This document shows, one piece after another, positions 9,674-36,082 of a DNA stretch of 64,000 nt. This DNA is from Pectobacterium aroidearum. Lineage in GTDB: Bacteria; Pseudomonadota; Gammaproteobacteria; Enterobacterales; Enterobacteriaceae. The notes below the pieces were generated by a model. That model searched no databases. It worked only from the letters and a program-made list of their open reading frames with translations, and was not told where the DNA came from. Both the position numbers and the translations under genes were made by a program. The stretch spans positions 372,001 through 436,000 of the forward strand of contig NZ_CP166097.1 of assembly GCF_041228105.1 (NCBI RefSeq), written 5' to 3'. Position 1 is the first letter of the stretch. Each line of letters starts with the position of its first letter.

Positions 9674-9703
9674 TGCGTTTTGTTCTCGTGATGCCAGAGA
9701 GGA

Positions 9704-10540
9704 TTAGCGTAAATCCAGCATCGCGATATGGTCCATATCGTCAAACGTCAGGTTTTCGCCGATCATGCCCCAGATAAAGGCGTAGTTTTTCGTACCGACG
9801 CCAGTGTGAATCGACCAACTGGGGGAGATCACCGCCTGTTCGTTATGCAGCACCAGATGACGCGTTTCATGCGGTTCACCCATCATATGGAAAATAATGG
9901 TGTCTTCCGCCATGTCAAAATAGAAGTACACTTCCATTCTGCGTTCATGAGTATGTGTCGGCATGGAATTCCAGTTGCTGCCTTCCGCCAGACGCGTTAA
10001 TCCCATGCTCAGTTGACAGGTTTCCACCACTTCCGGCACCAGATACTTGCAAATCGTCCGTTTGTTGCAGGTTTTGACGTCTCCCAACGGGGCTTTGATC
10101 GCATCATCCTGCGTAATGATGCGTGTCGGGTAAACGGCATGCGCCGGTGCGCTGTTATAATACAGTTTTGCCGGTTTGGCTTTGTCCAGGCTGCTGAATG
10201 CCAAGGCTTTGGCGCCTTTTCCGACATAGAGCGCTTCCTCATGGCCAACCTGGTAGCTTGTGCCGTCGATAACGATGTTGGCCGGGCCGCCAATATTGAT
10301 CAGCCCCAGCTCGCGCCGCTCAAGAAAATAGTTCACGCCAAATTGCTTACCGATGCCGTCATCAAACGTGATCTCGCCATCTACTGGCATGATTCCGCCC
10401 ACCACAATACGGTCGATATGGCTGTAAGTCATGGTGTACTGGTTTGGCGTAAATATCTTCTCAATCAGAAATTTCTTTCTCAGTTCAGTGGTATCAAGCG
10501 TTTTCGCATGTTCACTGTGTACACTTTGTCGTACGTCCAT
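9704..10540 (-). CDS. kduI: 5-keto-4-deoxyuronate isomerase (4-deoxy-L-threo-5-hexosulose-uronate ketol-isomerase)
   Basis: 278 residues, the full length of KduI. It isomerises 5-keto-4-deoxyuronate, released from unsaturated galacturonate oligomers, to 2,5-diketo-3-deoxygluconate in the cytoplasmic pectin pathway. The cupin fold and its zinc ligands are visible in [16 protein letters not shown] (two His and a Glu) and in [19 protein letters not shown] at 10540 has an AAGGT ribosome-binding site. The gene follows kdgT by only 12 bases, forming an operon that imports 2-keto-3-deoxygluconate and processes a parallel intermediate. Its presence indicates a pectin-degrading lifestyle. Confidence 0.96.
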
Positions 10541-10552
10541 TTTGCTACCTTC

Positions 10553-11509
10553 TTATGCGTGTTTAGGTGAAAAGCGTTTTGCCCATAATGCCGTGATGAC
10601 GGGCACCAATACTGACGTCACGATGACGCTGGTTGCGACTAACGCTGTCGCCTGTTGAGCGACCGGTGCGAATTCCGGCGCCATATTCGCGATGAGCAAA
10701 GGCGTGGCGACGGCGGCACCCGCGCTGCTGGATGCGGCCACACCTGCGGTACCATTACCGCCGCCGATAAATTTATCGGCGATAATCAATGGAATGCCGG
10801 TGACAACAATCACCAATACGCCGAGGAAGATTCCTGCGAAGCCTGTTTGGAGGATCACCGCTAAATTAATGGTATTACCCAACGCAAAGGCAAAGAAAGG
10901 AATCAGAGTTTGTACTGAGTTACCGAACAGTTTTCTCAGATCCGGGTCCAGGTTACCTAGCGTAAAGCCAATCAGGAAAGGCAGGACGGCACCGACAAAT
11001 AGCTGAGGTTCAAAGGTCGCGATACCGCTGGCCCCCAGAATAACCATAGTCATTAACGGGCCGGATTCCAGAGACATCAGCACGAACGCGCCTGCTTCTT
11101 CTTTCGAACCGTATTGGTTCATCAATGCGGCATACAAACCACCGTTTGTCATGTCCATTGCCGCGACCAGCGCCAACACGGAGATCCCGGCCAGCAAGCC
11201 GTTTTGGATGCCATCCCCCGGCAGGAACGTGCCTACGATCAGCGCGACAACCCAGGCGGTGGCGAGTTTGGTTATCACCAGAACGCCTGATTTTTTCAAC
11301 ATTGTTCCCGTTGCTTTAAGTTCAATGGACGCGCCCATACAGAAAAACCAGACCGCCAGAATGGGGATCGTGCCGGTAATCAGGCCGTTGCTGAAAGACC
11401 CTAAATATTTCCCCGCGCCTGGCGTAAAGGTATTACAGAGTGCGCCCAAAAAGAGCGGCACCAGCATTAATCCCCCTGGGATTTTATCAATAGCTTGTTT
11501 GATTTTCAT
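10553..11509 (-). CDS. kdgT: 2-keto-3-deoxygluconate permease
   Basis: 318-residue proton symporter for 2-keto-3-deoxygluconate in the inner membrane, with about ten hydrophobic helices. The sequence follows E. coli KdgT closely: [17 protein letters not shown] at the N terminus, [13 protein letters not shown] [37 protein letters not shown], and [23 protein letters not shown] used the ATG at 11509 because GAGGTC lies just upstream; another in-frame ATG lies four codons earlier. First gene of a two-gene operon with kduI. A short palindrome GTTTGATATAAAC (11570-11582) in its promoter region resembles the dyad at the nearby IclR gene. I saw no good KdgR box here. Confidence 0.95.
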
Positions 11510-21079: not shown

Positions 21080-21559
21080 TTGAAAACCAATCTGATTACC
21101 CGTGAGGGGTATGACAAACTGCGGGCAGAGCACGATCATCTCTGGAATGTAAAGCGCCCTGAAATTACCAAGATTGTTTCCTGGGCGGCCAGCCTGGGGG
21201 ATCGCTCGGAAAATGCAGACTACACCTATAACAAACGTTTATTACGCCAGATCGACAGGCGTGTACGCTACCTGAGAAAATGCCTGACGGAATTGAAGAT
21301 CGTTGATTATTCGCCGCAGCAGGATGGCAGCGTATTTTTTGGTGCCTGGGTCGAGATCGAAAATGAGCAAGGGGATGTGAAGCGTTTGCGGATTGTCGGC
21401 CCGGACGAGATCTACGGTGACAATAAAGACTACATTTCGATCGATTCCCCGATGGCGCGCGCCATGCTGAAAAAAGCGGTTGATGAGGAATTTACCGTGA
21501 ATACGCCGGACGGCCCGCGTGAGTGGTTCGTCAATTCGATTGATTACGTTAAGTCATAA
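21080..21559 (+). CDS. greB: Transcript cleavage factor GreB
   Basis: 159 residues. GreB binds the secondary channel of RNA polymerase and stimulates cleavage of backtracked transcripts. The N-terminal coiled coil carries the conserved tip acidic pair in GDRSENADYTYNKRLLRQIDRR; the C-terminal FKBP-like domain has VEIENEQGDVKRLRIVGPDE and DYISIDSPMARAMLKK. The start is a TTG codon at 21080: the following residues KTNLITREGY align with the E. coli start MKTPLVTREGY and no in-frame ATG or GTG is available. It points toward the siderophore island and ompR, opposite to its orientation relative to ompR in E. coli. Confidence 0.95.
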   Translation: MKTNLITREGYDKLRAEHDHLWNVKRPEITKIVSWAASLGDRSENADYTYNKRLLRQIDRRVRYLRKCLTELKIVDYSPQQDGSVFFGAWVEIENEQGDVKRLRIVGPDEIYGDNKDYISIDSPMARAMLKKAVDEEFTVNTPDGPREWFVNSIDYVKS

Positions 21560-21643: not shown

Positions 21644-22525
21644 TTAGTCATCTACATTTTGCGCTCGTAATAGCTGTCTGGCCTGCTCAATGACGGGTAA
21701 ATCCACCATTTCGCCGTTTATCTGGAAAGCGTAGCTGTGTTCGGCCGCTTTCAGCACCTGTTTTGCCCAATCTAGTTTACTGCGATCTGTCGCGAAAGCC
21801 TGCTGAACAGCATCGATCTGTGAAGGATGAATGCAGAGTTTGGCGGAGAAGCCGAGCGAACGTGCATGTAACGCATCGGCTAACACGCGATCGTGATGTG
21901 TGAAGTCAGGGTTGACGCAATCTATTGGCGGGGGCAAGTCGGCCAGTCTGGAAGCTAGTACAATACGGCTTCTGGCATACAGCAAGGCATACAGGGATTG
22001 ATCGCAGTGAATATCGAGCGAGAAATCCAGCGAGCCAAATGCGACTCTTTCTACCCCTGCCGCACAAATCTCCTCTGCATTATGCAACCCCCGTGCGGTT
22101 TCAATAATCGCAATAATATTCACATTATCCAATCTATTACGATTTATCATTTCCCGCGCGTCATTCAGCATTTCTGCGGATTCTATTTTAGGTAAAACAA
22201 TTTCCCATGTGACTATTTTATGTCTGGATTTTGCATTATTTCTTAATTTCTCTTTATTGTTGAGTTTATTTAGAAACTCGATGTCTTCCCTGAACGCTAT
22301 TGAATCAAATTTATTTAAACGTATATATCTTTTGCAATTTATTTCAGAGACGGTCGTATCGTTTTTATCCCACTGGATAATATTCTCTCTGGCCTGGTTT
22401 TTCTCATCAGGATGAACAGCATCTTCTAAATCAAATATCACAGCATCGGCCCCGCAGCTGACGGCATGTTGAAAGCGGTGGGGCGCATTACCAGGCACAA
22501 AGAGATAGGTTTTAGCGTGTTCCAT
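21644..22525 (-). CDS. CitE/HpcH-family (PF03328-type) lyase or aldolase of the siderophore island
   Basis: 293 residues of the HpcH/HpaI-CitE superfamily, TIM-barrel C-C lyases using Mg-bound enolates. Motifs in order: FVPGNAPHRFQHAVSCGADAV, DLEDAVHPDEK (metal/substrate), RYIRLN, LPKIESAE, AIIETARGLHN, FGSLDFSLD and KLCIHPSQID. It has a GGAGAG ribosome-binding site and diverges from the NIS synthetase operon, sharing its promoter region. SbnG of staphyloferrin B synthesis, a citrate synthase, belongs to the same superfamily, so a role in supplying citrate or another carboxylate unit is inferred. A catabolic acyl-CoA lyase is the alternative. Its coding sequence is noticeably AT-rich at 22100-22500. 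Confidence 0.8.
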   Translation of the reverse strand: MEHAKTYLFVPGNAPHRFQHAVSCGADAVIFDLEDAVHPDEKNQARENIIQWDKNDTTVSEINCKRYIRLNKFDSIAFREDIEFLNKLNNKEKLRNNAKSRHKIVTWEIVLPKIESAEMLNDAREMINRNRLDNVNIIAIIETARGLHNAEEICAAGVERVAFGSLDFSLDIHCDQSLYALLYARSRIVLASRLADLPPPIDCVNPDFTHHDRVLADALHARSLGFSAKLCIHPSQIDAVQQAFATDRSKLDWAKQVLKAAEHSYAFQINGEMVDLPVIEQARQLLRAQNVDD

Positions 22526-22559
22526 GCTGCTCTCCTTTGTTTAATTTATTGATTAAATG

Positions 22560-22576
22560 ACATTTTATTAAAATGT
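22560..22576. promoter_or_regulatory. 7-bp dyad upstream of the CitE-like gene
   Basis: ACATTTT (22560-22566), three bases, AAAATGT (22570-22576), 35-51 bases upstream of the lyase start codon in an AT-rich tract. Confidence 0.3.
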
Positions 22577-22591
22577 AACTAATTAATTGCG

Positions 22592-22610
22592 AATAAGAAT
22601 GATACCTATT
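22592..22610. promoter_or_regulatory. Fur-box-like site in the divergent siderophore promoter
   Basis: AATAAGAATGATACCTATT matches the 19-base Fur consensus at about 11 positions, a level common for true enterobacterial sites. It is placed to control both the CitE-like gene (67 bases away) and the NIS synthetase operon (166 bases away). No clear -10/-35 pair could be assigned. Confidence 0.5.
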
Positions 22611-22775
22611 TACATTGACATTAGTGATATGCTAGCTTTCCGTTCATTATTTTTCAATCCATCTATCGCGACATTTTTATTAAGTTTCGGGACGTGTTAA
22701 CCCGAGATTTAATGACACCCTTTTATACGTTACAGCAATCAATTTTTACTTGTTTTATCGGTATGAGGAGTGGTT

Positions 22776-24677
22776 ATGAATATCAAGTCAGAGGAAGTTA
22801 AACACAGGGATATACATCAGGATACAGATGATTTTCTCTCTGATTACTCAAATAAAAATGCGTTAAGGCGATTGATTCGCTGCTTTTTTGCAGAAGGAAT
22901 TTTAAATAAAAATGACCTGAATTTTATTGAGGATAATTCCAGGGGAGCGACGCTGGCTTTGCAGGATGGCAAAACTGTATTGAAATTTGATGATATTTCC
23001 CCAGCGCCAGCAAACACCTATATTAATAATGGAAATATTTATCTGATTAATTCAGATGGCACATCTTTCCCCGTCACTGGCCACGAGCAGTTGATTGATG
23101 TACTTCGTGATAGTTTCGATTTCCACCCGGAAGAGAGCGGCATCCTCGGTCTGAAAAAAGATGTGGGTAACAGTATTAGTAATGATACCCATGCCCGCCG
23201 CTATCGTCGCCAATGGCGTGCTGAGGTGGCTGACGCCATGCAGCGAGATGGGCAGAATCATTTCACGCTGTGGCTGCGTCGGCAGCTAAGTATTCGCGAT
23301 GCCGCGATGTTGCTCGATCAGTGGGGATCGCTGGAAGGCCACCCCTACTACCCAACCTGGAAATCCCGTCCGGGACTGAGTGACGAAGACGTCCAACAGC
23401 TATCACCCGAATTCAATGCCCGCGTGCCGCTGCGTATTACCGCGCTGCGTCGTGATATGGCGTATGTGGAATGCATGCCGCATGTCGATAATTTTCATCA
23501 GTGGTTTGCTCAGGCGTTCCCCGCGCTCTGGCAGGACTGGAAGCAGCGCCTGAACCAACAAGGGCTGGATGAAACACAGTGGCTCCCGCTGCCCATCCAC
23601 AGTTGGCATCTGGAAAATTGGGTGAAATCCCATTACGCGGATGAGATCGCCGAAGGCATTCTGCTTACCGACGGCCCCGATCTCATCACCTTGCCGGGGA
23701 TGTCGTTCCGTACGGTTTTGCCCGTTGAACCACCTTCTTCTCCCTTTATCAAGCTGCCTGTCGCCATCTGGATGACCAGCGAAATGCGCAGCCTACAGGC
23801 GAAATCGATCCACATGGGGCCACGTATCAGCACCATTATCGAAGCGATTTTGGCGCAGGAAGGCGGATTTGAGCAGCGGCTGGAATTTTTCCGCGAAGAG
23901 GCGGCGTTCCACTACAAGCACGCGGTTCATCAGGACGACGCGCCGGGCAAACATCTCTCCGTCGTGTTCCGTGATGCGCACGCCTATGAACGCGCTGACG
24001 GCGCGCTGCCCGTGACCGTCGCCACGCTCTTTACGGCGCTACCTCACCGCGACCAGCCGTTATTCACCGAGCTGGTGGCGCTGTCCGGGCTTGGCCCCGA
24101 AGCGTGGTTCCGCCAATACGTTCGCGCCGTGACCCGACCCGTCATCGCTATCTATCTGCTGTACGGCATCGGGCTGGAAGCGCATCAGCAGAACAGCCAG
24201 ATCCTCTTTTCACCGGAAGGCGTTGCACAGGGGCTATTAATTCGCGATTTCGGCGACGGGCGCACCTACGCACCGCTGCTGCGTCAGCGTGGCTATCACC
24301 TGCAACCTTACGTCTGGCCCGGCATTCTGCCCACGGTGTTTGAAGGCGATATCGAGCCGGTGCGGATGTTTGTCGTCGATGCCTGTTTCGTCAGCCACCT
24401 GCATGAACTGGCGCTGGCACTCAGTGCGGAATATGGCTTTGCCGATGCCCGGCTGTGGCAGGTGATGAAAGAGGAAACCGCCGCGGCGTTTGACGCCGTG
24501 AAGTCGCGCGTTGATGGCGAGCTGTGGCAGACCGAACGCGACATGTTTTTGACCCAGCCCTGGTATACGCGTTCTCTGCTGCGCATGCATATCCAGGAAT
24601 ATCGCGACTACCGGATTCAGCACGGTCTGAGCAATCCCTTCCTTGTGGAAGGGGAAGACACCCGCATCAGATCGTGA
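22776..24677 (+). CDS. NRPS-independent siderophore (NIS) synthetase, IucA/IucC family
   Basis: 633 residues, within the usual 580-650 for this family. NIS synthetases activate a carboxylate (often citrate) as an acyl-adenylate and couple it to an amine or alcohol. Family motifs: EGHPYYPTWKSRPGL (ATP-binding loop; the usual second His is Tyr), PFIKLPVAIWMTSEMRSL, GIGLEAHQQNSQI and LIRDFGDG. The C-terminal part resembles the FhuF-like ferric reductase-type helical domain shared by the family. ATG at 22776 is preceded by GAGGAG. First gene of the operon, and the only condensing enzyme in the island, so it may make both bonds of the product. The first about 110 codons are AT-rich, unlike the rest. 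Confidence 0.93.
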   Translation: MNIKSEEVKHRDIHQDTDDFLSDYSNKNALRRLIRCFFAEGILNKNDLNFIEDNSRGATLALQDGKTVLKFDDISPAPANTYINNGNIYLINSDGTSFPVTGHEQLIDVLRDSFDFHPEESGILGLKKDVGNSISNDTHARRYRRQWRAEVADAMQRDGQNHFTLWLRRQLSIRDAAMLLDQWGSLEGHPYYPTWKSRPGLSDEDVQQLSPEFNARVPLRITALRRDMAYVECMPHVDNFHQWFAQAFPALWQDWKQRLNQQGLDETQWLPLPIHSWHLENWVKSHYADEIAEGILLTDGPDLITLPGMSFRTVLPVEPPSSPFIKLPVAIWMTSEMRSLQAKSIHMGPRISTIIEAILAQEGGFEQRLEFFREEAAFHYKHAVHQDDAPGKHLSVVFRDAHAYERADGALPVTVATLFTALPHRDQPLFTELVALSGLGPEAWFRQYVRAVTRPVIAIYLLYGIGLEAHQQNSQILFSPEGVAQGLLIRDFGDGRTYAPLLRQRGYHLQPYVWPGILPTVFEGDIEPVRMFVVDACFVSHLHELALALSAEYGFADARLWQVMKEETAAAFDAVKSRVDGELWQTERDMFLTQPWYTRSLLRMHIQEYRDYRIQHGLSNPFLVEGEDTRIRS

Positions 24678-24685
24678 TGTATGGC

Positions 24686-24727
24686 GATGCTCCCGCCTTA
24701 CAGGCTGAAAAACGGGAGCATCTTTTT
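24686..24727 (+). terminator. Rho-independent terminator or attenuator inside the siderophore operon
   Basis: GATGCTCCCG (24686-24695) pairs perfectly with CGGGAGCATC (24713-24722), followed by TTTTT (24723-24727), between the NIS synthetase and receptor genes. The 17-base loop is larger than usual. Confidence 0.7.
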
Positions 24728-24759
24728 CACTCCTCATTTTGAGATGGATAACTTAGTTG

Positions 24760-26955
24760 ATGAACGCCAGGAAGAACTTCACTCCACCTACCGGGAAAAC
24801 GCGTTTTCCTATTCCCTCCGCGTTAGCCGTCGCCGTCACGGCGGCCATGGCTGTGCTAAGCGGTATCGCGATACCCGCCCTGGCTGAAACGGGCGAGCGC
24901 GATGATTCCACTATCGTGGTTGAAGCCAAAGACGCGGAAGCCGTACAGGGGCTGGTGGCGGGCGGCATGTCGGCGCGTTCGTCCAGTACCGGGCTGCTGG
25001 GCAAAAAGGATGTCATGGATACGCCGTTTAACGTCAGCAATGTGACCTCAGCGTTTATTGAAAACAAGCAGGCACAAACGCTAGGGCAGGTGGTTGCCCA
25101 TGACGCCTCGGTGCGTGTGAGCAGTTCTCAGGGCGGTCTGCTGGATTCTTATTACATTCGCGGTTTTCCACTCAACGAAGGAAACCTGAGCGACATCGCC
25201 ATGAACGGCGTCTACGGTGTTGCCCCCAACTATCAGCTGATGACCGACTACATTGAGCGGGTGGAAGTGCTGAAAGGGCCGTCGGCGTTGCTGTATGGGC
25301 TGTCGCCTAATAGCAGCGTGGGCGGCGTGATTAACGCCGTCACCAAACGCCCAACCACCGTAGGCAATCTGACCCGCCTCACCACCAGCTGGCAGTCTGA
25401 TTCCCAACTCACGCAGCATGCGGATATTTCCCGCGTCTATGCGCTGGAAAATAACAATCTGCTCGGCGTCCGTTTTAATGGCAACTATGGCTATGGCGAC
25501 ACCGTGTGGAATGGCAGCGATAAGCGCACACAGGTCGGCGCGCTTGGGTTGGATTTCTCGTCAGAACGTTTCCGTGCCACGTTGGATCTCATCACGCAGC
25601 ACCTGAAAACGCGTGCGCCGTCGCGACCTTATTCGTTCGCGGCGGGAGTGACCGTACCCGACGCACCAGATGGCAACACCAATATTTCCCAACCGTGGGG
25701 CTTCTGGCACTCCAAAGATCAGTCGGTGCTGCTGCATACCGAATACGATCTGGCGGATAACGTCACCTGGTTTACCGATTTAGGCGGTTCCAGCGCACAC
25801 GTGAGCCGACTGTCGGAGCAGGTGCCGCAGGTGATTAATAACAATGGTGATATTCGTTCCGGCGTAGGGAATTACCGCTTTACCACCAGTCGTTACAACT
25901 TCGCGACCGGCGTGCGCGCGGATGTGGAAACCGGAGCGGTGACGCACAAACTGTCGGCACAGACCAGCTACTATCGCGATCGTCAGGCCAGCGCCAGCAG
26001 AGCGGGAACGGCCATTGATTCAAATATTTACAACCCTGTCTCTGCGCCAGCACAGGATATCGCCGCGCCCTCGAGTATCTACAAACGCTCTTCTACCGCG
26101 CTGTCAGGCATCGCACTGGCAGATACGCTCGGCTTCTGGAACGATGCGCTGCAAGTCACGGGTGGGCTGCGCTATCAGCAGATCAACTCGGATAACTTCG
26201 CTGCGCCAGATGGCGGGGCGCGCTCTTCTTATGACAAGAGCGCAATCACCCCGATGCTCGGGGTGATTGTTAAACCCTGGCAGCACGTCTCGCTCTATGC
26301 CAACTACATTGAGGGGCTGAGTAAAGGGGACGTGGCACCCACGACGGCTAGCAATGCGGGGCAAGTGCTGTCGCCGTATAAGAGCAAACAGTACGAGGCT
26401 GGGGTGAAAGTGGACGCGCTGGGGACGATCTCCACGCTGAGCGTTTTCCAGATCACCAAACCGAGCGGTGCGCTGGTTAACGGCACGTTTGTTGATGCCA
26501 ACGAACAGCGTAATCGGGGTATTGAACTGGATGTGGTCGGTTCACCGCTGGAAGACCTGCGTCTGACGGGCGGCGTGATGCTGCTGGATGCCGAGTTGAC
26601 CAAAAGTGTGACGCCGGGGGCGCAGGGCAAGCGTGCGCCGGGCACGTCGCGTTTTCAGGCTAACGCCGGCGTGGAATATGACCTGCCGTTCCTGCGCGAT
26701 CTGACGCTGAGCGCCAACGTCACCCATAACGGGAAGCAGAACGTCAACACCATCAATACCCAATCCATTCCTTCCTGGACCACGGTTGATTTCGGCGCGC
26801 GTTACAAGACGCGAATCTACAACGCGCCCACCACGTTCCGCGCGGATGTCCTTAACGCCTTTGACCGCAATTACTGGTCTGGTGTGACGTCGTTCAGCAC
26901 GGTATCGCAAGGAACGCCGCGGACGCTGATGCTGTCTGTGGCGGTTGATTTCTAA
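24760..26955 (+). CDS. TonB-dependent siderophore receptor
   Basis: 731-residue outer-membrane receptor. A long signal peptide (to about residue 43, IPALAETGE) precedes a TonB-box-like DSTIVVEAKD. The plug domain follows, with DTPFNVSNVTSAFIENKQAQTLGQVV, YYIRGFPLNEGNLSDIAMNG and IERVEVLKGPSALLYGLSPN, then the 22-strand barrel with the C-terminal LMLSVAVDF. This layout is typical of ferric hydroxamate/carboxylate receptors. Start at ATG 24760; the ribosome-binding site is poor. It lies directly after the NIS synthetase gene and a terminator-like hairpin, so expression may be partly independent. Confidence 0.93.
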   Translation: MNARKNFTPPTGKTRFPIPSALAVAVTAAMAVLSGIAIPALAETGERDDSTIVVEAKDAEAVQGLVAGGMSARSSSTGLLGKKDVMDTPFNVSNVTSAFIENKQAQTLGQVVAHDASVRVSSSQGGLLDSYYIRGFPLNEGNLSDIAMNGVYGVAPNYQLMTDYIERVEVLKGPSALLYGLSPNSSVGGVINAVTKRPTTVGNLTRLTTSWQSDSQLTQHADISRVYALENNNLLGVRFNGNYGYGDTVWNGSDKRTQVGALGLDFSSERFRATLDLITQHLKTRAPSRPYSFAAGVTVPDAPDGNTNISQPWGFWHSKDQSVLLHTEYDLADNVTWFTDLGGSSAHVSRLSEQVPQVINNNGDIRSGVGNYRFTTSRYNFATGVRADVETGAVTHKLSAQTSYYRDRQASASRAGTAIDSNIYNPVSAPAQDIAAPSSIYKRSSTALSGIALADTLGFWNDALQVTGGLRYQQINSDNFAAPDGGARSSYDKSAITPMLGVIVKPWQHVSLYANYIEGLSKGDVAPTTASNAGQVLSPYKSKQYEAGVKVDALGTISTLSVFQITKPSGALVNGTFVDANEQRNRGIELDVVGSPLEDLRLTGGVMLLDAELTKSVTPGAQGKRAPGTSRFQANAGVEYDLPFLRDLTLSANVTHNGKQNVNTINTQSIPSWTTVDFGARYKTRIYNAPTTFRADVLNAFDRNYWSGVTSFSTVSQGTPRTLMLSVAVDF

Positions 26956-26996
26956 GGATAGGCATTTTTCAGGAACCGAACGTTAAGGAGATAGCG

Positions 26997-28400
26997 ATGA
27001 GCAACCTGTTTAGCTTTGCCGCAGTGTCTTCCCCCGCTGTCGCGCAGGCCCACTGGCCTGAGAGACTGACGCCTTATCTGGATAGTGAGATTGAGCAGTT
27101 TCTTTTCAACTCGCCGCAAAGGTTGTCATGGCTGGTTGAGCTGTATGGGTCGCCGCTGAATATTGTCTGGCCTCACACGGTGGCCAACAATATCGCGGCA
27201 TTGCGAACGGTGTTGCAGCGCCACGATGTGGACTGCCGCCTGTACTACGGCGCGAAGGTGAACAAATCACCGGGGCTGGTGCAGGCGGCCGTTAACGCGG
27301 GCGTCGGCGTGGATGTTTCCAGTTTACAGGAGCTGAAAGATGCCCTGCGGGCTGGCTGTGACGGCGCGCGACTGTGCGCCACGGGGCCAGCGAAAACGCG
27401 CGAGTTCCTGATGGCGTTGGTTAATCACCGTGCCCTCATCGTGTTGGACTCGCCGGAAGAGTTCGACGAGGTGCTCGCGCTGGCGGATGTGCTGCGCGTG
27501 ACGGAGCCAGTACGCGTTTTGCTGCGCTATCGCCCGTCGTTCGCACAGGCCAGCCGGTTTGGCATGCTGGCCGATGAGGCCGCACGCTGTCTGGAGACAC
27601 TGAGCATCAGACAGGATGCGCTTCGGCTGGAAGGCTTTCATTTCCATCTGGGCGGTTATGAGCCCGATACCCGCGTGGCCGCATTGTCTGAGGTGCTGCC
27701 ATTGCTAGAGCAGGCGCGCGCAAAGGGATTGCAGCCCGCCATTATTGATATCGGCGGTGGATTACCGATTCAATATCTTCCGGCCTCACGCTATCAGGAT
27801 TATTTAGCGAAGCAGAATGGGGCGGACTATCGCCACGGTCAGGTGCCGACCTCGTTTTACCCATATGGCGGCGAGTGTTCAGCAGCTGATTATCTTGAGG
27901 CATTTCTGTCAGCCTCAGTCGGGGATACCCGTGTGGCAGAGGTGCTCAAACAACACGGCTTGATTCTGGCGATTGAGCCGGGACGCAGCCTGGCTGACCA
28001 AAGTGCGATTACGGTATTTCGCGTGACGCGAACGCGTCGCCAGCCAGACGGCAACCACGTTGTGTTTGTGGAAGGCAGTAGCTTCAGCGCCTGTGAAACC
28101 TGGTTTAACTCTGAGTTTTTGATTGATCCTCTGCATGTTTTTTCCGTCAAAAAAGACACCCCTCCGACGCCGGGCAAAGCCTGGATCGCCGGACACAGCT
28201 GTCTGGACGACGATGTCATTACGAACCGATTGATTCATTTTCGAACCGTGCCGCAGCCAGGTGATTTACTGATTTATGCGAATACGGCGGGATACCAGAT
28301 GGACCTGCTGGAGAACGCGTTTCATCGACATCCGCTGCCTGCGCGCTTGTGTGCGTTCAAAGGTAAGAAAGGTGAGCTGATTTTTTCCAGTGATAACTGA
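26997..28400 (+). CDS. Fold-type III PLP-dependent decarboxylase, SbnH/Y4yA-like
   Basis: 467 residues of the ornithine/diaminopimelate decarboxylase group. The PLP lysine is Lys87 in YYGAKVNKS (usually YAxKAN). Other conserved pieces: GFHFHLGGYE (His stacking on PLP), IIDIGGGLPIQY (phosphate-binding Gly loop), IEPGRSLADQ and SCLDDDVITNR near the C terminus (Cys-Asp active-site pair from the neighbouring subunit). AAGGAG precedes the ATG. In staphyloferrin B synthesis SbnH decarboxylates the citryl-diaminopropionate intermediate. Here it could do the same or decarboxylate free diaminopropionate. It resembles, from memory, Y4yA of Rhizobium NGR234. Confidence 0.88.
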   Translation: MSNLFSFAAVSSPAVAQAHWPERLTPYLDSEIEQFLFNSPQRLSWLVELYGSPLNIVWPHTVANNIAALRTVLQRHDVDCRLYYGAKVNKSPGLVQAAVNAGVGVDVSSLQELKDALRAGCDGARLCATGPAKTREFLMALVNHRALIVLDSPEEFDEVLALADVLRVTEPVRVLLRYRPSFAQASRFGMLADEAARCLETLSIRQDALRLEGFHFHLGGYEPDTRVAALSEVLPLLEQARAKGLQPAIIDIGGGLPIQYLPASRYQDYLAKQNGADYRHGQVPTSFYPYGGECSAADYLEAFLSASVGDTRVAEVLKQHGLILAIEPGRSLADQSAITVFRVTRTRRQPDGNHVVFVEGSSFSACETWFNSEFLIDPLHVFSVKKDTPPTPGKAWIAGHSCLDDDVITNRLIHFRTVPQPGDLLIYANTAGYQMDLLENAFHRHPLPARLCAFKGKKGELIFSSDN

Positions 28401-28413
28401 ATGGAGCAGAACC

Positions 28414-29430
28414 ATGATCCTGAATAAAGTAACTGACTTGATTGGTAATACCCCCGTTATACAAATTCCGGTTCCCTATGGGGATACGCGTTTGTTTTTA
28501 AAAGTGGAGAAGAACAATCCCGGCGGCAGCATGAAGGATCGCATGGCGCGCAACATGATTGTCGCCGGGTTGAAGTCAGGCAAAATTCGCCCCGGCGGCA
28601 CTATCGTCGAGTCGTCGTCGGGTAATACCGGTATCGGGCTGGCGCTGGCGTCGATCGAATATGGCCTGCGCTTTATCGCCGTGGTCGATCACCACGCGGC
28701 ACAGGACAAAATTGCCATCATGCGTGCGCTCGGCGCGGAAATTCGCTACGTCTCCGGCGACTACGGTGAAGATGAAGTGGCGGTGGTGGAACGTCAACGC
28801 ATGGCGGCACAGTTGGCACAGGAAATTCCCGGTGCGGTGTTTATGAATCAATCGGATAACGCGGCGAATGCGGGCGGCTACGCTGATTTTGTGCGTGAGC
28901 TGTTCAGCCAGATTGGCAAGATCGACGCGTTTGTCGGCTGCGTGGGCACTGGCGGATCGATGACCGGTATTTCGCACGGCCTGAAAGTCCATAACCCGGA
29001 TATTACGACCATTGCCGTTGAACCAGTGGGTTCTATTGTCTTCGGCCACCCCGGCAAACCTTACTACCAGTCTGGCACCGGTACGCCAGCCGGAGATACC
29101 GTGGGGCTGGTGCTGGATTATAGCTGCATCGACTGTGGCGAGCAGGTTTCGGATGCGCAGGCGTTTGAAACCGCACGCTATATCGCGCGGCACTATGGTT
29201 TGCTGGTCGGCGGCTCGACGGGCGGGGTGATCTATAAAGCGCTGGAATTGATCTATCAGGATCGCATCGGCGGCAACGTTGTGCTGGCGATTGCCGACGG
29301 CGGTGAAAAATACCTGCATACGGTGTTTAACGAAGAGTGGCTGGCGGCGCGTAATCTGACGGATAGCGGCGTATGGCACGATCTGGATCGCTGGCTGGGC
29401 AACGCGATTTCTCTGGAGCAGGCAAGCTAA
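28414..29430 (+). CDS. SbnA-like PLP enzyme (cysteine synthase family), predicted ACEGA synthase
   Basis: 338 residues of fold-type II PLP enzymes. The PLP lysine is Lys41 in GGSMKDRMARNM; ESSSGNTGIGLALASIEYG and GTGGSMTGISHGLK bind substrate and phosphate; GGSTGGVIYKALEL lies near the C terminus. True CysK proteins have a different lysine motif, while SbnA and cystathionine-synthase-like members share SMKDR. SbnA joins O-phospho-L-serine and L-glutamate to N-(1-amino-1-carboxyl-2-ethyl)-glutamate (ACEGA). That role is inferred from family and from the neighbouring opine dehydrogenase and serine-kinase-like genes. Start at ATG 28414 after GGAGCAG, 13 bases past the decarboxylase stop. Confidence 0.85.
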   Translation: MILNKVTDLIGNTPVIQIPVPYGDTRLFLKVEKNNPGGSMKDRMARNMIVAGLKSGKIRPGGTIVESSSGNTGIGLALASIEYGLRFIAVVDHHAAQDKIAIMRALGAEIRYVSGDYGEDEVAVVERQRMAAQLAQEIPGAVFMNQSDNAANAGGYADFVRELFSQIGKIDAFVGCVGTGGSMTGISHGLKVHNPDITTIAVEPVGSIVFGHPGKPYYQSGTGTPAGDTVGLVLDYSCIDCGEQVSDAQAFETARYIARHYGLLVGGSTGGVIYKALELIYQDRIGGNVVLAIADGGEKYLHTVFNEEWLAARNLTDSGVWHDLDRWLGNAISLEQAS

Positions 29431-29440
29431 GGAGTTAAGG

Positions 29441-30598
29441 ATGACCGAAGCGCTAAGCGGGCAGCCGCTTAACGTGGTGATTTGCGGGGCCGGTAAGACC
29501 GGCCATCTCGCCACGGTACTGTTTACACAACTGCCGGACGTCAGGGTGACGCTGCTGGGTAGCCATCCGCGCCTGCCGGAAGCCTATCAGCAGCACGGTA
29601 AACGGCTACATGCCCTGTTGCCGGATGGCGAGACGCTGACGGCCACGCCGGACTGCGTGACCTGCGATCCGGCGGAAGCCTGCCGCGATGCGGACGTCGT
29701 TATCATCACCGTTCCTGCTAACTTCCGCGCCGATCTTCTGGCGCGGATTGTTCCTCATCTGCCCGCCAACAAACCGGTTTATGTTGGCGCCATTCCCGGT
29801 TTTTGCGGTTTTGACTGGCTGGCTGAACGCGAGCTGGCCGCTCGTCCGAACGTGGTGATTTGGGGCATGAAGGACGTTGCGCACATTGCGTTTGATTTAC
29901 TGCCGGGTCAGTCGATCAAAATGGGCGGCGAAAAGGCCACGCTGTATGTCGCCACGCATCGGCGTGAAACGGCTGCGAGCCAGCAGGCGCTGATGGCACT
30001 GTTGCAACGACTCTATTCTGCACCAGTGGTGCTGTTACCGGATTATCTGGAGATCACGCTGACGCCGGGTAACCCGATTATGCACAGTGCAGTGATTTAT
30101 GGCCTGATCGGTCCCTATGGACAGTGGCACGCCCGACCGCTCTCACAGCCGCTGTGCTGGTGGAATGATTGCCCGGAACTCGGTGCCTATTATCTGGAAC
30201 GTATGGACGAGGAGAACCAACGGCTGTGTGCAGCGCTGGAGGCGCGGCTTGGTGTGCAGTTGGATTCGGTGCTGCCGCTCAAGCAGGAGATTATCGATGC
30301 CTATGGTGAGCAGATTGCCGATGCGCACACGATGCTCTCTGTGCTGCGCACCAATCAGGCTTACCACGGCATCGGTCTGCCGCTGCGAAAAGATGGCGCG
30401 GGCGGGTATGTGTTTGATACGCAGCATCGGGTGTTTCAGGAGGATATCGCTTACGGCCTGAGCCTGCTGGTGACCATCGCGGAGAATCTGGCCGTTAGCG
30501 TGCCGTACATTGAGGAAGTCTACCGGTGGTGCAGCGATTATATGGGCACTTCCACGCAGGATCGTCCCGACTATTTCCCGCCACAGTGGCTGAAATGA
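29441..30598 (+). CDS. Octopine/opine dehydrogenase family enzyme, predicted ACEGA dehydrogenase
   Basis: 385 residues. The N-terminal Rossmann domain (VVICGAGKTGHLATVLF, residues about 12-28; DVVIITVPANFRADLL) binds NAD(P)H. The C-terminal helical octopine-dehydrogenase domain has TLTPGNPIMHSAVIYGLIGP, whose His is the likely catalytic acid/base, and a hydrophobic substrate pocket. Family enzymes interconvert an amino acid plus a 2-oxo acid with a secondary amine dicarboxylate. ACEGA has exactly that structure, so the oxidative direction would release L-2,3-diaminopropionate and 2-oxoglutarate. This is the step done by SbnB, a different family, in staphyloferrin B synthesis. AAGGAGTTAAGG precedes the ATG. 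Confidence 0.85.
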   Translation: MTEALSGQPLNVVICGAGKTGHLATVLFTQLPDVRVTLLGSHPRLPEAYQQHGKRLHALLPDGETLTATPDCVTCDPAEACRDADVVIITVPANFRADLLARIVPHLPANKPVYVGAIPGFCGFDWLAERELAARPNVVIWGMKDVAHIAFDLLPGQSIKMGGEKATLYVATHRRETAASQQALMALLQRLYSAPVVLLPDYLEITLTPGNPIMHSAVIYGLIGPYGQWHARPLSQPLCWWNDCPELGAYYLERMDEENQRLCAALEARLGVQLDSVLPLKQEIIDAYGEQIADAHTMLSVLRTNQAYHGIGLPLRKDGAGGYVFDTQHRVFQEDIAYGLSLLVTIAENLAVSVPYIEEVYRWCSDYMGTSTQDRPDYFPPQWLK

Positions 30599-30635
30599 GA
30601 CGGGGTGACGTCGTGAAAGCAGAAGGAATTGACGC

Positions 30636-31886
30636 ATGCGCTTGAATGGGCAGGTGGCGTTCATCATCCACTTTATGTTTGTCGTACAGCTGGTGGCGAT
30701 GGGGGCGATGGAGATGAGCGGGCCGTTTTGGCCGCTGCATCTGGAAAGTATGTCGTCCGGTGCGGAACTGAGTATCGCGGGGATTGCCGTGTACATCGGG
30801 CCGATGCTGGGCATTATGCTGACCAGTGCCTTCTGGGGACGAATGGGCGATCGGCTGGGCAATAAAGCCATGATGATCCGCGCGCTGTTCGGGCTGGCGT
30901 TAACCCAGCTCGGGCTGGCGTGGGCCAATGACATCTGGACGATCGTCGCGCTGCGTTTTATTCAGGGCGCCTGTGCGGGGTATATCGCGCCCGCGCAGGC
31001 CTACGGCGTCGCGGTCGTCAGTCCGTTACAGCGTACGCGGCTGTTCGCCTGGCTTCAGGTGTCTACCAACGTCGGATCGCTGCTAGGGGCGATAGTCGGT
31101 GGGCTGATCCTCGACTACCTGAACTTCTTCTGGATCAACCTGAGCGCCGCGATCCTGTGCGCGCTGTGTGGCATTACCGTGGCGCTGTTCCTGCCGCATG
31201 TCGCCCCCGATGTCCCTGCGGTTCCGCCTGCGGATGCACAGGAGAAAAGCACACCGCGCAGGCGGCTTTGGGCGTTGTCGCCGATTTCCGGCCTGCTGCT
31301 GATTTCCGGCCTGTTGCTGGCCAGCCGCATGATTCCGCAAACGCCGTTTTCCCTGTATATGGATGGCATTTTTCAGGTGGATAAATGGATTATCGGCCTG
31401 TGCTATGGCTTGCAGGCGACCGGTGTGATTGTCTCTGCATCGCTGTGGGCGCGCTATTTTGAAAACCTCTCGCTGTCCCAGACGCTGAGCCGCCTGTGTG
31501 TGGTTATGCTGGCCTGCGCCATCGTCACATTGACGGCCGCCACGATCCTGAATATCGCGATTTTCATCCCGCTTTATTTCCTGTGGGGCGTCCTGCTGGG
31601 GGCGACGACGCCGGTTCTGATGGCGCTGATTTCCCGTGCGGCTGGTGCCGGACAGCAGGGTTACATACTCGGTGTGGCGCAAAGCGTCAGCCAGTTTGCT
31701 TCGATTCTGGGCATTGCTTTGGGTGGATTGGTGCTCTACTCCCCCGGACTACGTTCGCTGTTCTTCTGCGTTGGCGCCGCGTATCTGGTGACCTTTCTGG
31801 TCTCGCTGATGCTGCTACGACACCTGCGGAAACAGGCGGAAAAACATGACTCTCTCTCGACGAAGGGAAATATCGAAAATGTGTAA
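30636..31886 (+). CDS. MFS exporter of the siderophore island
   Basis: 416-residue major facilitator with about 12 membrane helices. The cytoplasmic loop motif GRMGDRLGNKAMM (motif A, about residues 68-80) and the central charged loop (LPHVAPDVPAVPPADAQEKS, about residue 187) are clear. The second half has GVLLGATTPVLMALISRAAG. It lies 37 bases after the opine dehydrogenase gene. MFS proteins such as SbnD, AlcS or IucD-linked exporters release NIS siderophores, so siderophore secretion is the likely job. AAGGA precedes the ATG at a slightly long spacing. Confidence 0.9.
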   Translation: MRLNGQVAFIIHFMFVVQLVAMGAMEMSGPFWPLHLESMSSGAELSIAGIAVYIGPMLGIMLTSAFWGRMGDRLGNKAMMIRALFGLALTQLGLAWANDIWTIVALRFIQGACAGYIAPAQAYGVAVVSPLQRTRLFAWLQVSTNVGSLLGAIVGGLILDYLNFFWINLSAAILCALCGITVALFLPHVAPDVPAVPPADAQEKSTPRRRLWALSPISGLLLISGLLLASRMIPQTPFSLYMDGIFQVDKWIIGLCYGLQATGVIVSASLWARYFENLSLSQTLSRLCVVMLACAIVTLTAATILNIAIFIPLYFLWGVLLGATTPVLMALISRAAGAGQQGYILGVAQSVSQFASILGIALGGLVLYSPGLRSLFFCVGAAYLVTFLVSLMLLRHLRKQAEKHDSLSTKGNIENV

Positions 31887-33039
31887 TCGTTGGACGCGGC
31901 AATATTGCCGTCGGTTATTGCTGAGTGCGCTGTTGATGGTCGGTCTGTCGCCGCTGGTGGCGCAGGCTGAGCAAACTGCGCAAACCTCAACGTTTATTAA
32001 GGATGTGCTGGGGCGTGAGGTGAGGGTCAACACGCCGGTGCAGCGCGTCATGTTGGGGGAAGGACGTCAGCTTTATCTGGTCGCGATGCTCGACAGGGAA
32101 GATCCGGCGAAAAGGATCGTTGCCTGGCGGCGCGATTTGATTCAGTCCGATCCGGCAACGTGGCACCAGTACCGCGATCGTTTTCCTCAACTGGCGAAAA
32201 TTCCGACGTTCGACGGCACGGAGAAAGGGACGTTTGACGTGGAACAGGCGGTATCGCTGAAGCCGGACGTCATCATTATGAATATTGAGGCGCAGCGGGC
32301 GATTGTCGATGCGGGCTATGACCGGATACTGGATAGCGTCGGCATTCCGATTGTGTATGTCGATTTTCGCTATCACCCGCTGGAAAACACCGCGCCGACC
32401 CTGCGTCTGTTCGGCAAGTTGTTTCATCAGGAAGCGCGCGCCGAGGCGTTTCTCGCGTTCCGTGAGGCGCAGCTAAAACGTGTTTCCGACGTGCTGGCGG
32501 CGAAAAAGCCGCGTTCACCGCGCGTGTTCATTGAGCGGTTGGGGGGCTACACCGATGAGTGCTGCCTGACCTTCGGCCCAGATAACTTCGGTAAGTTCGT
32601 GCAACTGGCCGGTGGCGATAACGTTGCGGCAAAAAATGCGCCGAGCACTTTTATGCAGATGCACCCTGAACAGGTGATTGTGGAAAACCCTGAAGTGGTG
32701 GTGATCACCAGCGGCAACTTTGAAGCCTTCGTACCCGGCGGGCGCTGGATTGGATTGGGACCGGGGCAGGATGTGGTTGAAGGGCGCAAGCGGCTTGAAT
32801 GGTTTTTGGGACGGCCTGCGTATACCAACACCCTCGCGAAGCAGAAACGCGCGTTCTATGCCATCTGGCATCAGTTTTATAACGGGCCCTATGATTTCAT
32901 CGCGATTCAGCAATTGGCTGAGTGGTTTCACCCCGATCTATTCCGCGATCTCAACGCGGATGACACTTTCCGCCAGCTTCATCAGCAATTTTTACCGGTG
33001 GACTACCAGCCGGGCTATTTCGTCAGTCTTGCGCCGTAA
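31879..33039 (+). CDS. Periplasmic iron-siderophore binding protein, FecB/BtuF-like
   Basis: 386 residues. A Sec signal peptide (QYCRRLLLSALLMVGLSPLVAQAEQ) leads to a class III binding protein: FIKDVLGREVRVNTPVQRVMLGEGR at the first strand, SLKPDVIIMN, GIPIVYVDFR and a second lobe with FIERLGGYTDECCLTFGPDNFGKFVQLAGGDNVA. The cysteine pair (DECC) and the long C-terminal lobe are unusual for small FhuD-type proteins. I chose the ATG at 31879, which overlaps the MFS stop codon and has GAAGGGA upstream; a start at 31846 would add 11 residues. No cognate ABC permease or ATPase is in the window. Confidence 0.85.
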   Translation: MCNRWTRQYCRRLLLSALLMVGLSPLVAQAEQTAQTSTFIKDVLGREVRVNTPVQRVMLGEGRQLYLVAMLDREDPAKRIVAWRRDLIQSDPATWHQYRDRFPQLAKIPTFDGTEKGTFDVEQAVSLKPDVIIMNIEAQRAIVDAGYDRILDSVGIPIVYVDFRYHPLENTAPTLRLFGKLFHQEARAEAFLAFREAQLKRVSDVLAAKKPRSPRVFIERLGGYTDECCLTFGPDNFGKFVQLAGGDNVAAKNAPSTFMQMHPEQVIVENPEVVVITSGNFEAFVPGGRWIGLGPGQDVVEGRKRLEWFLGRPAYTNTLAKQKRAFYAIWHQFYNGPYDFIAIQQLAEWFHPDLFRDLNADDTFRQLHQQFLPVDYQPGYFVSLAP

Positions 33040-33047
33040 ATGAGAGG

Positions 33048-33072
33048 CAGCTCCGACGTTGCGTCGGAGCTG
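33048..33072. repeat. 11-bp perfect hairpin between the binding-protein and SbnI-like genes
   Basis: CAGCTCCGACG and CGTCGGAGCTG with a three-base loop TTG. No T-run follows, so it may tune read-through or protect the upstream mRNA rather than terminate fully. Confidence 0.55.
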
Positions 33073-33101
33073 TGCGTAACCGTTACGTCAGGAGGTGGAT
33101 A

Positions 33102-33512
33102 ATGTTTGAAGGTATGACCTACCAGATCGCTCTTACGCCCGTGCAGTTCCTGCTTCCCTCTGAAAATGTTGATATGTCGAACGTGGAATGTCTGATGGAG
33201 GACATTTGCCGCTGTGGCTGCTGGACGACACCGGTGCCCATAGAGAAAGAAACCGGAATTATTATGGACGGCAATCATCGGCTACGTGCGGCCACCGAGC
33301 TGGGATTGAAGCACATCCCCTGCGCGTTGCTTGATTATGAGGATCCTCGCGTGTCCGTTTATCACTGGAAGACCGGGCAACCTTTTTGCAAGAATCTGAT
33401 TATGCAGACCATTGTGACGGAAAAGGGTCTGTTTCCCTACAAGACCACACGTCATCTTTTCCAGCCTGCGCTGCCGTCGGTGAGCGTGGTACTGGATGAA
33501 CTGATGCGCTAA
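33102..33512 (+). CDS. Minimal ParB/Srx-fold protein resembling the serine kinase SbnI
   Basis: 136 residues. It shows a ParB N-terminal-type fold: IALTPVQFLLPSENVD with Glu21, then IIMDGNHRLRAATELGLKHIPCALLDYEDP with the DGxHR motif at residues 56-60. SbnI and archaeal SerK use this fold to phosphorylate free L-serine; as I recall, SbnI needs Glu20 and Asp58, almost the same positions as Glu21 and Asp56 here. SbnI is about 254 residues, so this is a half-length version lacking the C-terminal domain. A near-perfect AGGAGGTGG precedes the ATG at 33102. It probably supplies O-phosphoserine to the SbnA-like enzyme and closes the operon. Confidence 0.75.
   Translation: MFEGMTYQIALTPVQFLLPSENVDMSNVECLMEDICRCGCWTTPVPIEKETGIIMDGNHRLRAATELGLKHIPCALLDYEDPRVSVYHWKTGQPFCKNLIMQTIVTEKGLFPYKTTRHLFQPALPSVSVVLDELMR

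Positions 33513-33877: not shown

Positions 33878-36082
<2,205 letters not shown>

Follow-up and report, generated by a model that had tools for sequence, protein, structure and literature searches.

Which siderophore is assembled by a gene cluster that combines a single nonribosomal peptide synthetase-independent siderophore (NIS) synthetase with an opine dehydrogenase? This question is raised by an island of nine open reading frames (ORFs) in Pectobacterium aroidearum, located at 21644..33512 of the window, by which we mean the whole stretch of 64,000 nucleotides that was analyzed (contig NZ_CP166097.1, positions 372,001 to 436,000). Flanked by greB and ompR-envZ, the island consists of pbtI on the minus strand followed by the close-packed genes pbtA-pbtH on the plus strand; the gene names were taken over from the proteobactin cluster of Proteus mirabilis. 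An earlier note on this DNA had described the nine genes and their place, which was borne out in that all of the ORFs were found with family matches, and had regarded them as a reduced staphyloferrin B (sbn) set operating with citrate or another carboxylate. Based on the comparisons described below, the cluster is instead considered to be of the proteobactin type, and it quite probably directs the synthesis of a rhizobactin-type amino-polycarboxylate siderophore, with rhizobactin B, accompanied by some rhizobactin, as the most likely product.

The argument starts from Pseudomonas sp. FEN, which releases rhizobactin and larger amounts of rhizobactin B, a form in which malate is replaced by citramalate, as shown by 2D nuclear magnetic resonance (PMC7676072). 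Rhizobactin is composed of an ethylenediamine group coupled to alanine, lysine, and malic acid, and the reported formulas are C15H27N3O8 (m/z 378.1866) for rhizobactin and C16H29N3O8 (m/z 392.2020) for rhizobactin B (PMC7676072). In the genome named Pseudomonas sp. FEN, all nine pbt genes were found in one locus (L025), being 48-74% identical to those of the window, and this locus holds the only NIS synthetase and the only octopine-dehydrogenase protein of that genome. Since the sole NIS synthetase is at the pbt locus, the NIS genes that we take to be part of the rhizobactin 1021 set are not present in FEN. The same economy was seen in the Pectobacterium genome, in which PbtA is the sole IucA_IucC protein and PbtE the sole PF02317 protein, so that the single NIS synthetase described for the cluster in the earlier note holds genome-wide; in five cluster genomes counted, four had one NIS synthetase and one, a Pseudomonas, had a second. 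The receptor of the FEN locus has 810 aa and is 90% identical to a Pseudomonas batumici receptor, which fits the receptor RAST 3107 tabulated for this strain (811 residues, P. batumici, 90%; PMC7676072).

A route to these molecules may be written from the nine gene products, each step being assigned from the enzyme family with one job per family. PbtH would phosphorylate serine to O-phosphoserine, the phosphate of which would be replaced by the alpha-amine of lysine in a reaction of PbtD, giving N-(2-amino-2-carboxyethyl)lysine. Removal of a carboxyl group by PbtC would leave an ethylenediamine arm, and PbtE would condense its amine with pyruvate and perform the subsequent reduction, as in opine chemistry, to create an N-(1-carboxyethyl) end. 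PbtI would supply citramalate from pyruvate and acetyl-CoA, and PbtA, using ATP, would join citramalate (or malate) to the side-chain amine of lysine. PbtF would export the siderophore or assist its import, while PbtB and PbtG would take up the iron complex. The atom count of this route is C15H27N3O8 (378.1871) with malate and C16H29N3O8 (392.2027) with citramalate; the summed steps thus give exactly both reported formulas, which we counted in favor of the rhizobactin assignment. The earlier note had predicted diaminopropionate or its decarboxylated form in the product, and the latter part survives in the predicted ethylenediamine unit, formally a decarboxylated diaminopropionate; a reduced staphyloferrin B set with citrate was not supported.

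The nine genes also travel together. With the opine dehydrogenase as the bait, one pattern scan of 84,980 species genomes yielded 86 relatives, 80 of which were kept, and their loci contained an NIS synthetase in 80 cases, the decarboxylase, the SbnA-like enzyme, and the major facilitator superfamily (MFS) transporter in 79 each, the receptor in 75, the SerK-like protein in 72, the binding protein in 69, and the CitE-like lyase in 37; as the set was chosen by the bait, these counts measure linkage, not total frequency. The locus without the decarboxylase and SbnA-like genes (L063) starts at a contig end. The association of these genes is not due to chance, and it is seen in alpha-, beta-, and gammaproteobacteria. 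The opine dehydrogenase was also found in 46 plasmid records. On the Serratia marcescens plasmid pE28_003, which bears the same cluster, IS903B was found where the Y4yA-family decarboxylase gene begins (L133 5817-6785). Rhizobium sp. 007 has a second, remoter opine dehydrogenase (35.7% identity) on NZ_CP064190.1 (57007-58131), with the closer one on NZ_CP064188.1.

Putative active-site residues were then compared in proteins collected by an ORF picker from 82 loci, namely, the 80 loci, NGR234, and the Serratia plasmid. It yielded 76 decarboxylases, 75 NIS synthetases, 64 opine dehydrogenases, 58 SbnA-like, 53 SerK-like, and 27 CitE-like proteins, the missing ones likely being accounted for by overlapping frames or contig ends; 72 decarboxylases, 62 opine dehydrogenases, 57 SbnA-like, 52 SerK-like, and 25 CitE-like proteins remained after a length filter, many of them closely related, such that the residue counts are not independent. 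H215, R330, and D335 of PbtE were present in 62/62 and match H212, R324, and D329 of octopine dehydrogenase. Similarly, the PbtH proteins retained the equivalents of E30 (51/52) and of D69, H72, and R73 (52/52) of SerK, in which Glu30 and Asp69 are presumably functional. K87 and R330 of PbtC were kept in 72/72, and the residues of PbtI to which we ascribe roles were E34, R69, E142, D167, and H233 in 25/25, D32 in 24/25, and R17 in 21/25. This retention of catalytic residues across the families was also counted in favor of the rhizobactin assignment. A class V pyridoxal phosphate (PLP) enzyme gene (SufS/EgtE-like) was observed in 23 of the 82 loci, including FEN (L151 ~9700-10858) and L010 (13332-14522), and in none of the nine loci L001-L009.

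Regarding the acid that is attached by PbtA, the lyase encoded by pbtI is of particular relevance. PbtI scored best with the NCBIfam model RipC (152.9 bits; cut-off 375), followed by CitE (125.4 bits), and its best PDB matches were the beta chains of acyl-CoA and citrate lyases. NCBIfam assigns RipC to itaconate degradation as a lyase, and RipC-type enzymes act on citramalyl-CoA; PbtI is predicted from these similarities to provide the citramalate (or malate) moiety of the siderophore. A RipC-like gene adjoins the cluster in FEN, whose main product is the citramalate form. In Sinorhizobium meliloti AK83, the cluster is on a 256 kb plasmid, and pbtI was not found within 25 kb around it; strain DM4, the first reported rhizobactin producer, makes a product that contains malate (PMC7676072). 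Several other wild-type strains of S. meliloti do not make rhizobactin (PMC3836376), and, of the replicons of strain 1021, pSymA, the one considered, was not among the 46 plasmid records. The strain-restricted production in this species, together with the plasmid-borne cluster of AK83, was counted in favor of the assignment, as was the agreement between pbtI and the type of acid in the FEN and DM4 products. Among the 80 loci, pbtI was present in 13/14 from Enterobacterales, 23/23 from Pseudomonadales, and one Bosea locus, while no CitE-like gene was found within the fetched flanks of 42 loci from other named orders; on a tree of the NIS synthetases (74 rows, quick method), its presence corresponds to three changes. 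Our prediction is that the product is the malate-containing rhizobactin without pbtI and the citramalate-containing rhizobactin B with it.

Several points weigh against these assignments. The link between genes and product in FEN is by presence, not by knockout, in a draft genome matched to the strain by name; moreover, the FEN paper credited homologues of rhbAB of the rhizobactin 1021 system with the product and left biosynthesis for later (PMC7676072). In a search confined to open-licence papers, we found no mutant, enzyme assay, or product of a pbt strain other than FEN that ties these genes to rhizobactin, and no paper that links the pbt cluster to this molecule. The position of Gln118 of octopine dehydrogenase is Phe in 61/62 PbtE proteins; the keto-acid site is thus not identical to that of octopine dehydrogenase, and we infer pyruvate as the substrate rather than read it from the site. 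The order of the steps and lysine as the nucleophile are similarly inferred. PbtA has as its nearest family FslA, a citrate enzyme, and PbtI is far under the RipC cut-off, so that its substrate is a tentative one, and its action in the direction of synthesis is assumed. The agreement between pbtI and product concerns two cases, in one of which gene content and product come from different strains (AK83 and DM4, respectively), and the distribution of pbtI follows the tree. Y4xP, a Sinorhizobium relative of PbtD, is a reported cysteine synthase (PMC3973906), and a beta-substituting enzyme may have cysteine synthase activity besides another role; y4yA, y4yB, and y4xP mutants of USDA257 have also been tabulated as being without a symbiotic defect. 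Lastly, a classical Fur box was sought at the pbtI/pbtA promoter, and none was present in the intergenic region: the best 19-mers of the window matched at 14/19 positions, with three such sites against approximately one expected, all outside of this region. Fur boxes and iron repression have been reported for the pbt genes of P. mirabilis (PMC11026637).

The alternative that best withstands these data keeps the lysine-ethylenediamine-alanine backbone and places the difference at its ends: in Pectobacterium, PbtA may attach citrate or another acid, or PbtE may use a keto acid other than pyruvate. The tentative substrate assignment of PbtI, the FslA-like NIS synthetase, and the keto-acid site of PbtE that departs from octopine dehydrogenase are all compatible with this possibility, and specificity may vary among enzymes with 50-61% identity to their FEN counterparts; the citryl analogue would be seen at a calculated m/z of 436.1926. 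However, PbtI is common to FEN and has kept the chosen active-site residues, and FEN contains both the malate and citramalate forms, implying that its one NIS synthetase, if it is the maker, takes both acids. We regard a different acid or keto acid as improbable.

A still less probable alternative stays close to the earlier note and assumes a siderophore of citrate and diaminopropionate, in which PbtD and PbtE make diaminopropionate, the opine dehydrogenase taking the role of SbnB in cleaving an SbnA-type product, and PbtA and PbtC act similarly to FslA and FslC to yield dicitryl-ethylenediamine (calculated m/z 409.1089). In its favor, the NIS synthetase and MFS transporter best match the rhizoferrin synthetase FslA and FslB, one NIS synthetase and a citryl-amino-acid decarboxylase suffice for rhizoferrin in Francisella (PMC7857480), and the SbnA product is itself, in our judgment, opine-like. 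Against it stands the absence of SbnB, in whose place the earlier note had pointed out the opine dehydrogenase: the best SbnB match in the genome of the window scored 78.3 bits, the cut-off being 326.9. SbnB was above this cut-off in none of 18 cluster genomes (that of the window and 17 behind the 80 loci), 15 of which had weaker family members, and in two of 398 genomes of the phylum, among which no pbt-like NIS cluster with SbnB replacing the opine dehydrogenase was found. One of these two genomes has an sbn-type cluster (L135), and the other a cluster that by eye is peptide-synthetase-like (L136).

The SbnA-like enzyme also departs from the sbn model. PbtD was below the SbnA cut-off of 349.95 bits (Table 1), whereas the SbnA of cluster L135 scored 430.5 bits. 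SbnA selects O-phosphoserine via Arg132, Tyr152, and Ser185 (PMC12414870). The first of these was kept in 57/57 PbtD proteins, the second was Ser in 57/57, and the third was Gly in 57/57; three SbnA comparators had Tyr152 in 3/3 and Ser185 in 1/3. Since the other two comparators also have Gly at position 185, only Tyr152 separates SbnA from PbtD. PbtC belongs to the same fold family as SbnH; its match to diaminopimelate decarboxylase (58.8 bits) exceeded those to FigC (7kh2; 26.8 bits) and to 6knh (22.3 bits), which is taken to be SbnH as judged from the neighboring entry 6knk. PbtH has kept the SerK residues compared, and SbnI was not among its PDB matches. PbtI aligned with the L135 protein that was taken by eye for SbnG with only 28.9 bits over 88 columns. 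Furthermore, FEN, which possesses these nine genes and has no further NIS synthetase, is a reported rhizobactin producer. The proposal of a reduced staphyloferrin B set with citrate is not supported by the SbnA-like enzyme, which is below the cut-off and has lost Tyr152 in all of the proteins aligned, or by the lyase, which is nearest to RipC. Dicitryl-ethylenediamine, formed with the opine dehydrogenase as a stand-in for SbnB, had been a candidate product and was dropped on account of the SbnA residues in PbtD and the FEN paper. It is very unlikely that the opine dehydrogenase makes a separate staphylopine-like metallophore beside an unrelated carboxylate siderophore of the NIS synthetase, the two being mere neighbors; opine dehydrogenases do make metallophores (the staphylopine family), but an NIS synthetase accompanied the dehydrogenase in 80/80 loci and the decarboxylase and SbnA-like enzyme in 79, and a search limited to the nine proteins of the island found no nicotianamine-synthase-like domain of the staphylopine type.

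The features of the island and its flanks are listed in Table 1. An alternative start of pbtD, an ATG at 28414, gives a protein of 338 aa and agrees with the start in FEN. The relatives of PbtC are annotated as the Y4yA family, and the right-flank genes are taken to be ompR and envZ. A periplasmic binding protein is encoded by the island, but the ORF list shows no ABC (ATP-binding cassette) permease or ATPase adjoining the cluster.

Table 1. Features of the island and its flanks, with positions of the window.
Feature	Position	Strand	Family match or remark
greB	21080..21559	+	Left flank, outside the pathway; near envZ in island-free genomes
pbtI, CitE/RipC-like lyase, 293 aa	21644..22525	-	HpcH_HpaI
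Divergent promoter region pbtI/pbtA	22526..22769	.	Between pbtI and pbtA
pbtA, NIS synthetase, 635 aa	22770..24677	+	IucA_IucC and FhuF; best FslA, 267.4 bits
pbtB, TonB-dependent siderophore receptor, 732 aa	24757..26955	+	Family match
pbtC, alanine-racemase-fold PLP decarboxylase, 467 aa	26997..28400	+	Orn_Arg_deC_N; best NCBIfam lysA, 112.3
pbtD, SbnA-like beta-substituting PLP enzyme, 346 aa from GTG	28390..29430	+	PALP; best SbnA family, 237.8 bits
pbtE, octopine-dehydrogenase-family enzyme, 385 aa	29441..30598	+	Octopine_DH, 105.2 bits
pbtF, MFS transporter, 416 aa	30636..31886	+	MFS_1; best FslB, 181.1 bits
pbtG, periplasmic ferric-siderophore binding protein, 397 aa	31846..33039	+	Peripla_BP_2
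pbtH, short SerK/SbnI-like protein, 146 aa	33072..33512	+	SerK, 40.6 bits; without a Pfam match
ompR-envZ	33878..35955	+	Right flank, outside the pathway

Within the genus, the state of the island varies. In nine other Pectobacterium genomes, picked for lacking an intact opine dehydrogenase, the spacing between greB and envZ by coordinates was 866-1240 bp in five, versus 13,038 bp in the present strain, and the sequence of one (G005) was read as an empty site. Across 25 Pectobacterium genomes, pbtA was intact in 16, split in two frames in one (G021), represented by remnants with a full-length receptor in three, and absent together with any closely related receptor in five. The receptor gene of G021 was also in pieces, perhaps through sequencing error, and the pbtE frame was broken in G018, one of the 16 genomes with intact pbtA. 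In G001 (L146), G015 (L149), and G014 (L147), the synthesis genes were deleted or eroded, while pbtB, pbtF, and pbtG were full length; G001 and G015 have a common pbtA deletion junction, and the ratios of nonsynonymous to synonymous substitution rates between them by a simple count were 0.04 for pbtB, 0.13 for pbtF, and 0.08 for pbtG. These three strains are likely to have retained siderophore uptake without synthesis, under selection, as far as gene content and substitution patterns indicate. The retention of pbtF alongside the uptake genes hints at a possible role of PbtF in uptake, even though the family nearest to it is an exporter; RhtX serves rhizobactin uptake in S. meliloti (PMC3836376). 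The receptor of the window shared 99% identity with its counterpart in another species (G007) and 95% with the one from its own species (G464), whereas pbtA showed the reverse pattern (94 and 99%, respectively), and, from these opposite patterns, a receptor allele was probably exchanged between Pectobacterium species.

On balance, we lean towards the view that rhizobactin, proteobactin, and the y4yB-y4xM product of rhizobia represent one hybrid NIS-opine pathway, which builds an arm similar to ethylenediaminetetraacetic acid (EDTA) on lysine, with pbtI as the switch to rhizobactin B and with proteobactin and the Pectobacterium product both being rhizobactin B. If this is true, genes would be assigned to rhizobactin, a siderophore of unusual structure that was described in the 1980s, and a structure would be predicted for the proteobactin of a urinary pathogen. 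The proposed logic of beta-substitution, decarboxylation, opine condensation, and NIS amide formation may apply to natural EDTA-like chelators, and the predicted exact masses make the question directly testable in existing strains. To judge from the literature searched, the gene set was already known as the proteobactin cluster and the molecule as rhizobactin and rhizobactin B, which were described separately, and it is their joining that is proposed here.

A comparison with known systems places the island as follows. Staphyloferrin B (sbn) has in common with it, at the level of families, the SbnA-like enzyme, decarboxylase, MFS transporter, NIS synthetase, and SerK-like parts; however, it employs three NIS synthetases (SbnC, SbnE, and SbnF) versus one in the island, which is without SbnB, has a RipC-type rather than SbnG-type lyase, and has lost Tyr152 of SbnA. 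The staphyloferrin-B-type cluster L135 was observed to have fused NIS genes and a short SerK-like gene at its end (L135 221-856); a paper on a similar cluster in Methylobacterium aquaticum describes sbnI as lacking and a hypothetical gene at the cluster end. Rhizoferrin (fslABC) provides the closest NIS and MFS families in NCBIfam and likewise uses one NIS synthetase plus a decarboxylase, but its route is without an SbnA-like or opine dehydrogenase step (PMC7857480), and the family cut-offs of 1000 bits for FslA and 500 bits for FslC were above the scores obtained (267.4 and 30.3 bits, respectively). Of the rhizobactin and rhizobactin B producers Ensifer meliloti DM4 and FEN, the latter shares the nine genes with the island, and the formulas fit the proposed pathway. 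The FEN locus differs from that of Pectobacterium in its additional genes, which were named by eye as a class V PLP enzyme, sigma-factor-like, FecR-like, ABC permease, and ATPase genes.

The proteobactin cluster of P. mirabilis (PMI0229-0239), an NIS-type cluster named in 2010 (Himpsl et al., via PMC11026637), has the same arrangement of a divergent pbtI followed by the NIS synthetase, receptor, decarboxylase, PLP enzyme, opine dehydrogenase, MFS transporter, binding protein, and a hypothetical gene. All nine genes were found in the same order in P. mirabilis ATCC 29906 (L051), with 48-81% identity to those of the window. In P. mirabilis, an ABC permease and an ATPase are encoded next to the cluster, the ORFs of both being at the edge of L051, in contrast to the ORF list of Pectobacterium. 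For proteobactin, a review has suggested oxaloacetate and a type B NIS synthetase (PMC11026637), whereas citramalate or malate and rhizobactin are predicted here. The earlier note had named a close match to a characterized cluster of known product as evidence against its reading, and such a match was found by halves: the same cluster has borne the name proteobactin since 2010, and the nine genes are also those of a rhizobactin and rhizobactin B strain, the paper on which credited other genes.

The closest analogue that the earlier note had named, y4xM-y4yA of NGR234, was confirmed as a gene run on pNGR234a. In this Sinorhizobium fredii strain, the y4yB-y4xM run (L132 6192-13237; 36-70% identical to the genes of the window) comprises ParB-like, Y4yA, cysteine-synthase-like, opine dehydrogenase, NIS, and MFS genes, and a second copy is on pNGR234b. 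It differs from the island in that the 19 kb read contain no gene for a CitE-like protein, a receptor, or a binding protein, and in its position between nopX and nopL in a type III secretion locus. Its role has been called enigmatic in a review (PMC3973906), and one table gives a 53- to 83-fold induction of these genes by apigenin (PMC10970691). If the proposed pathway is correct, y4yB-y4xM would be a rhizobactin operon under symbiosis control, which would provide a function for rhizobial genes that mutant studies left unexplained.

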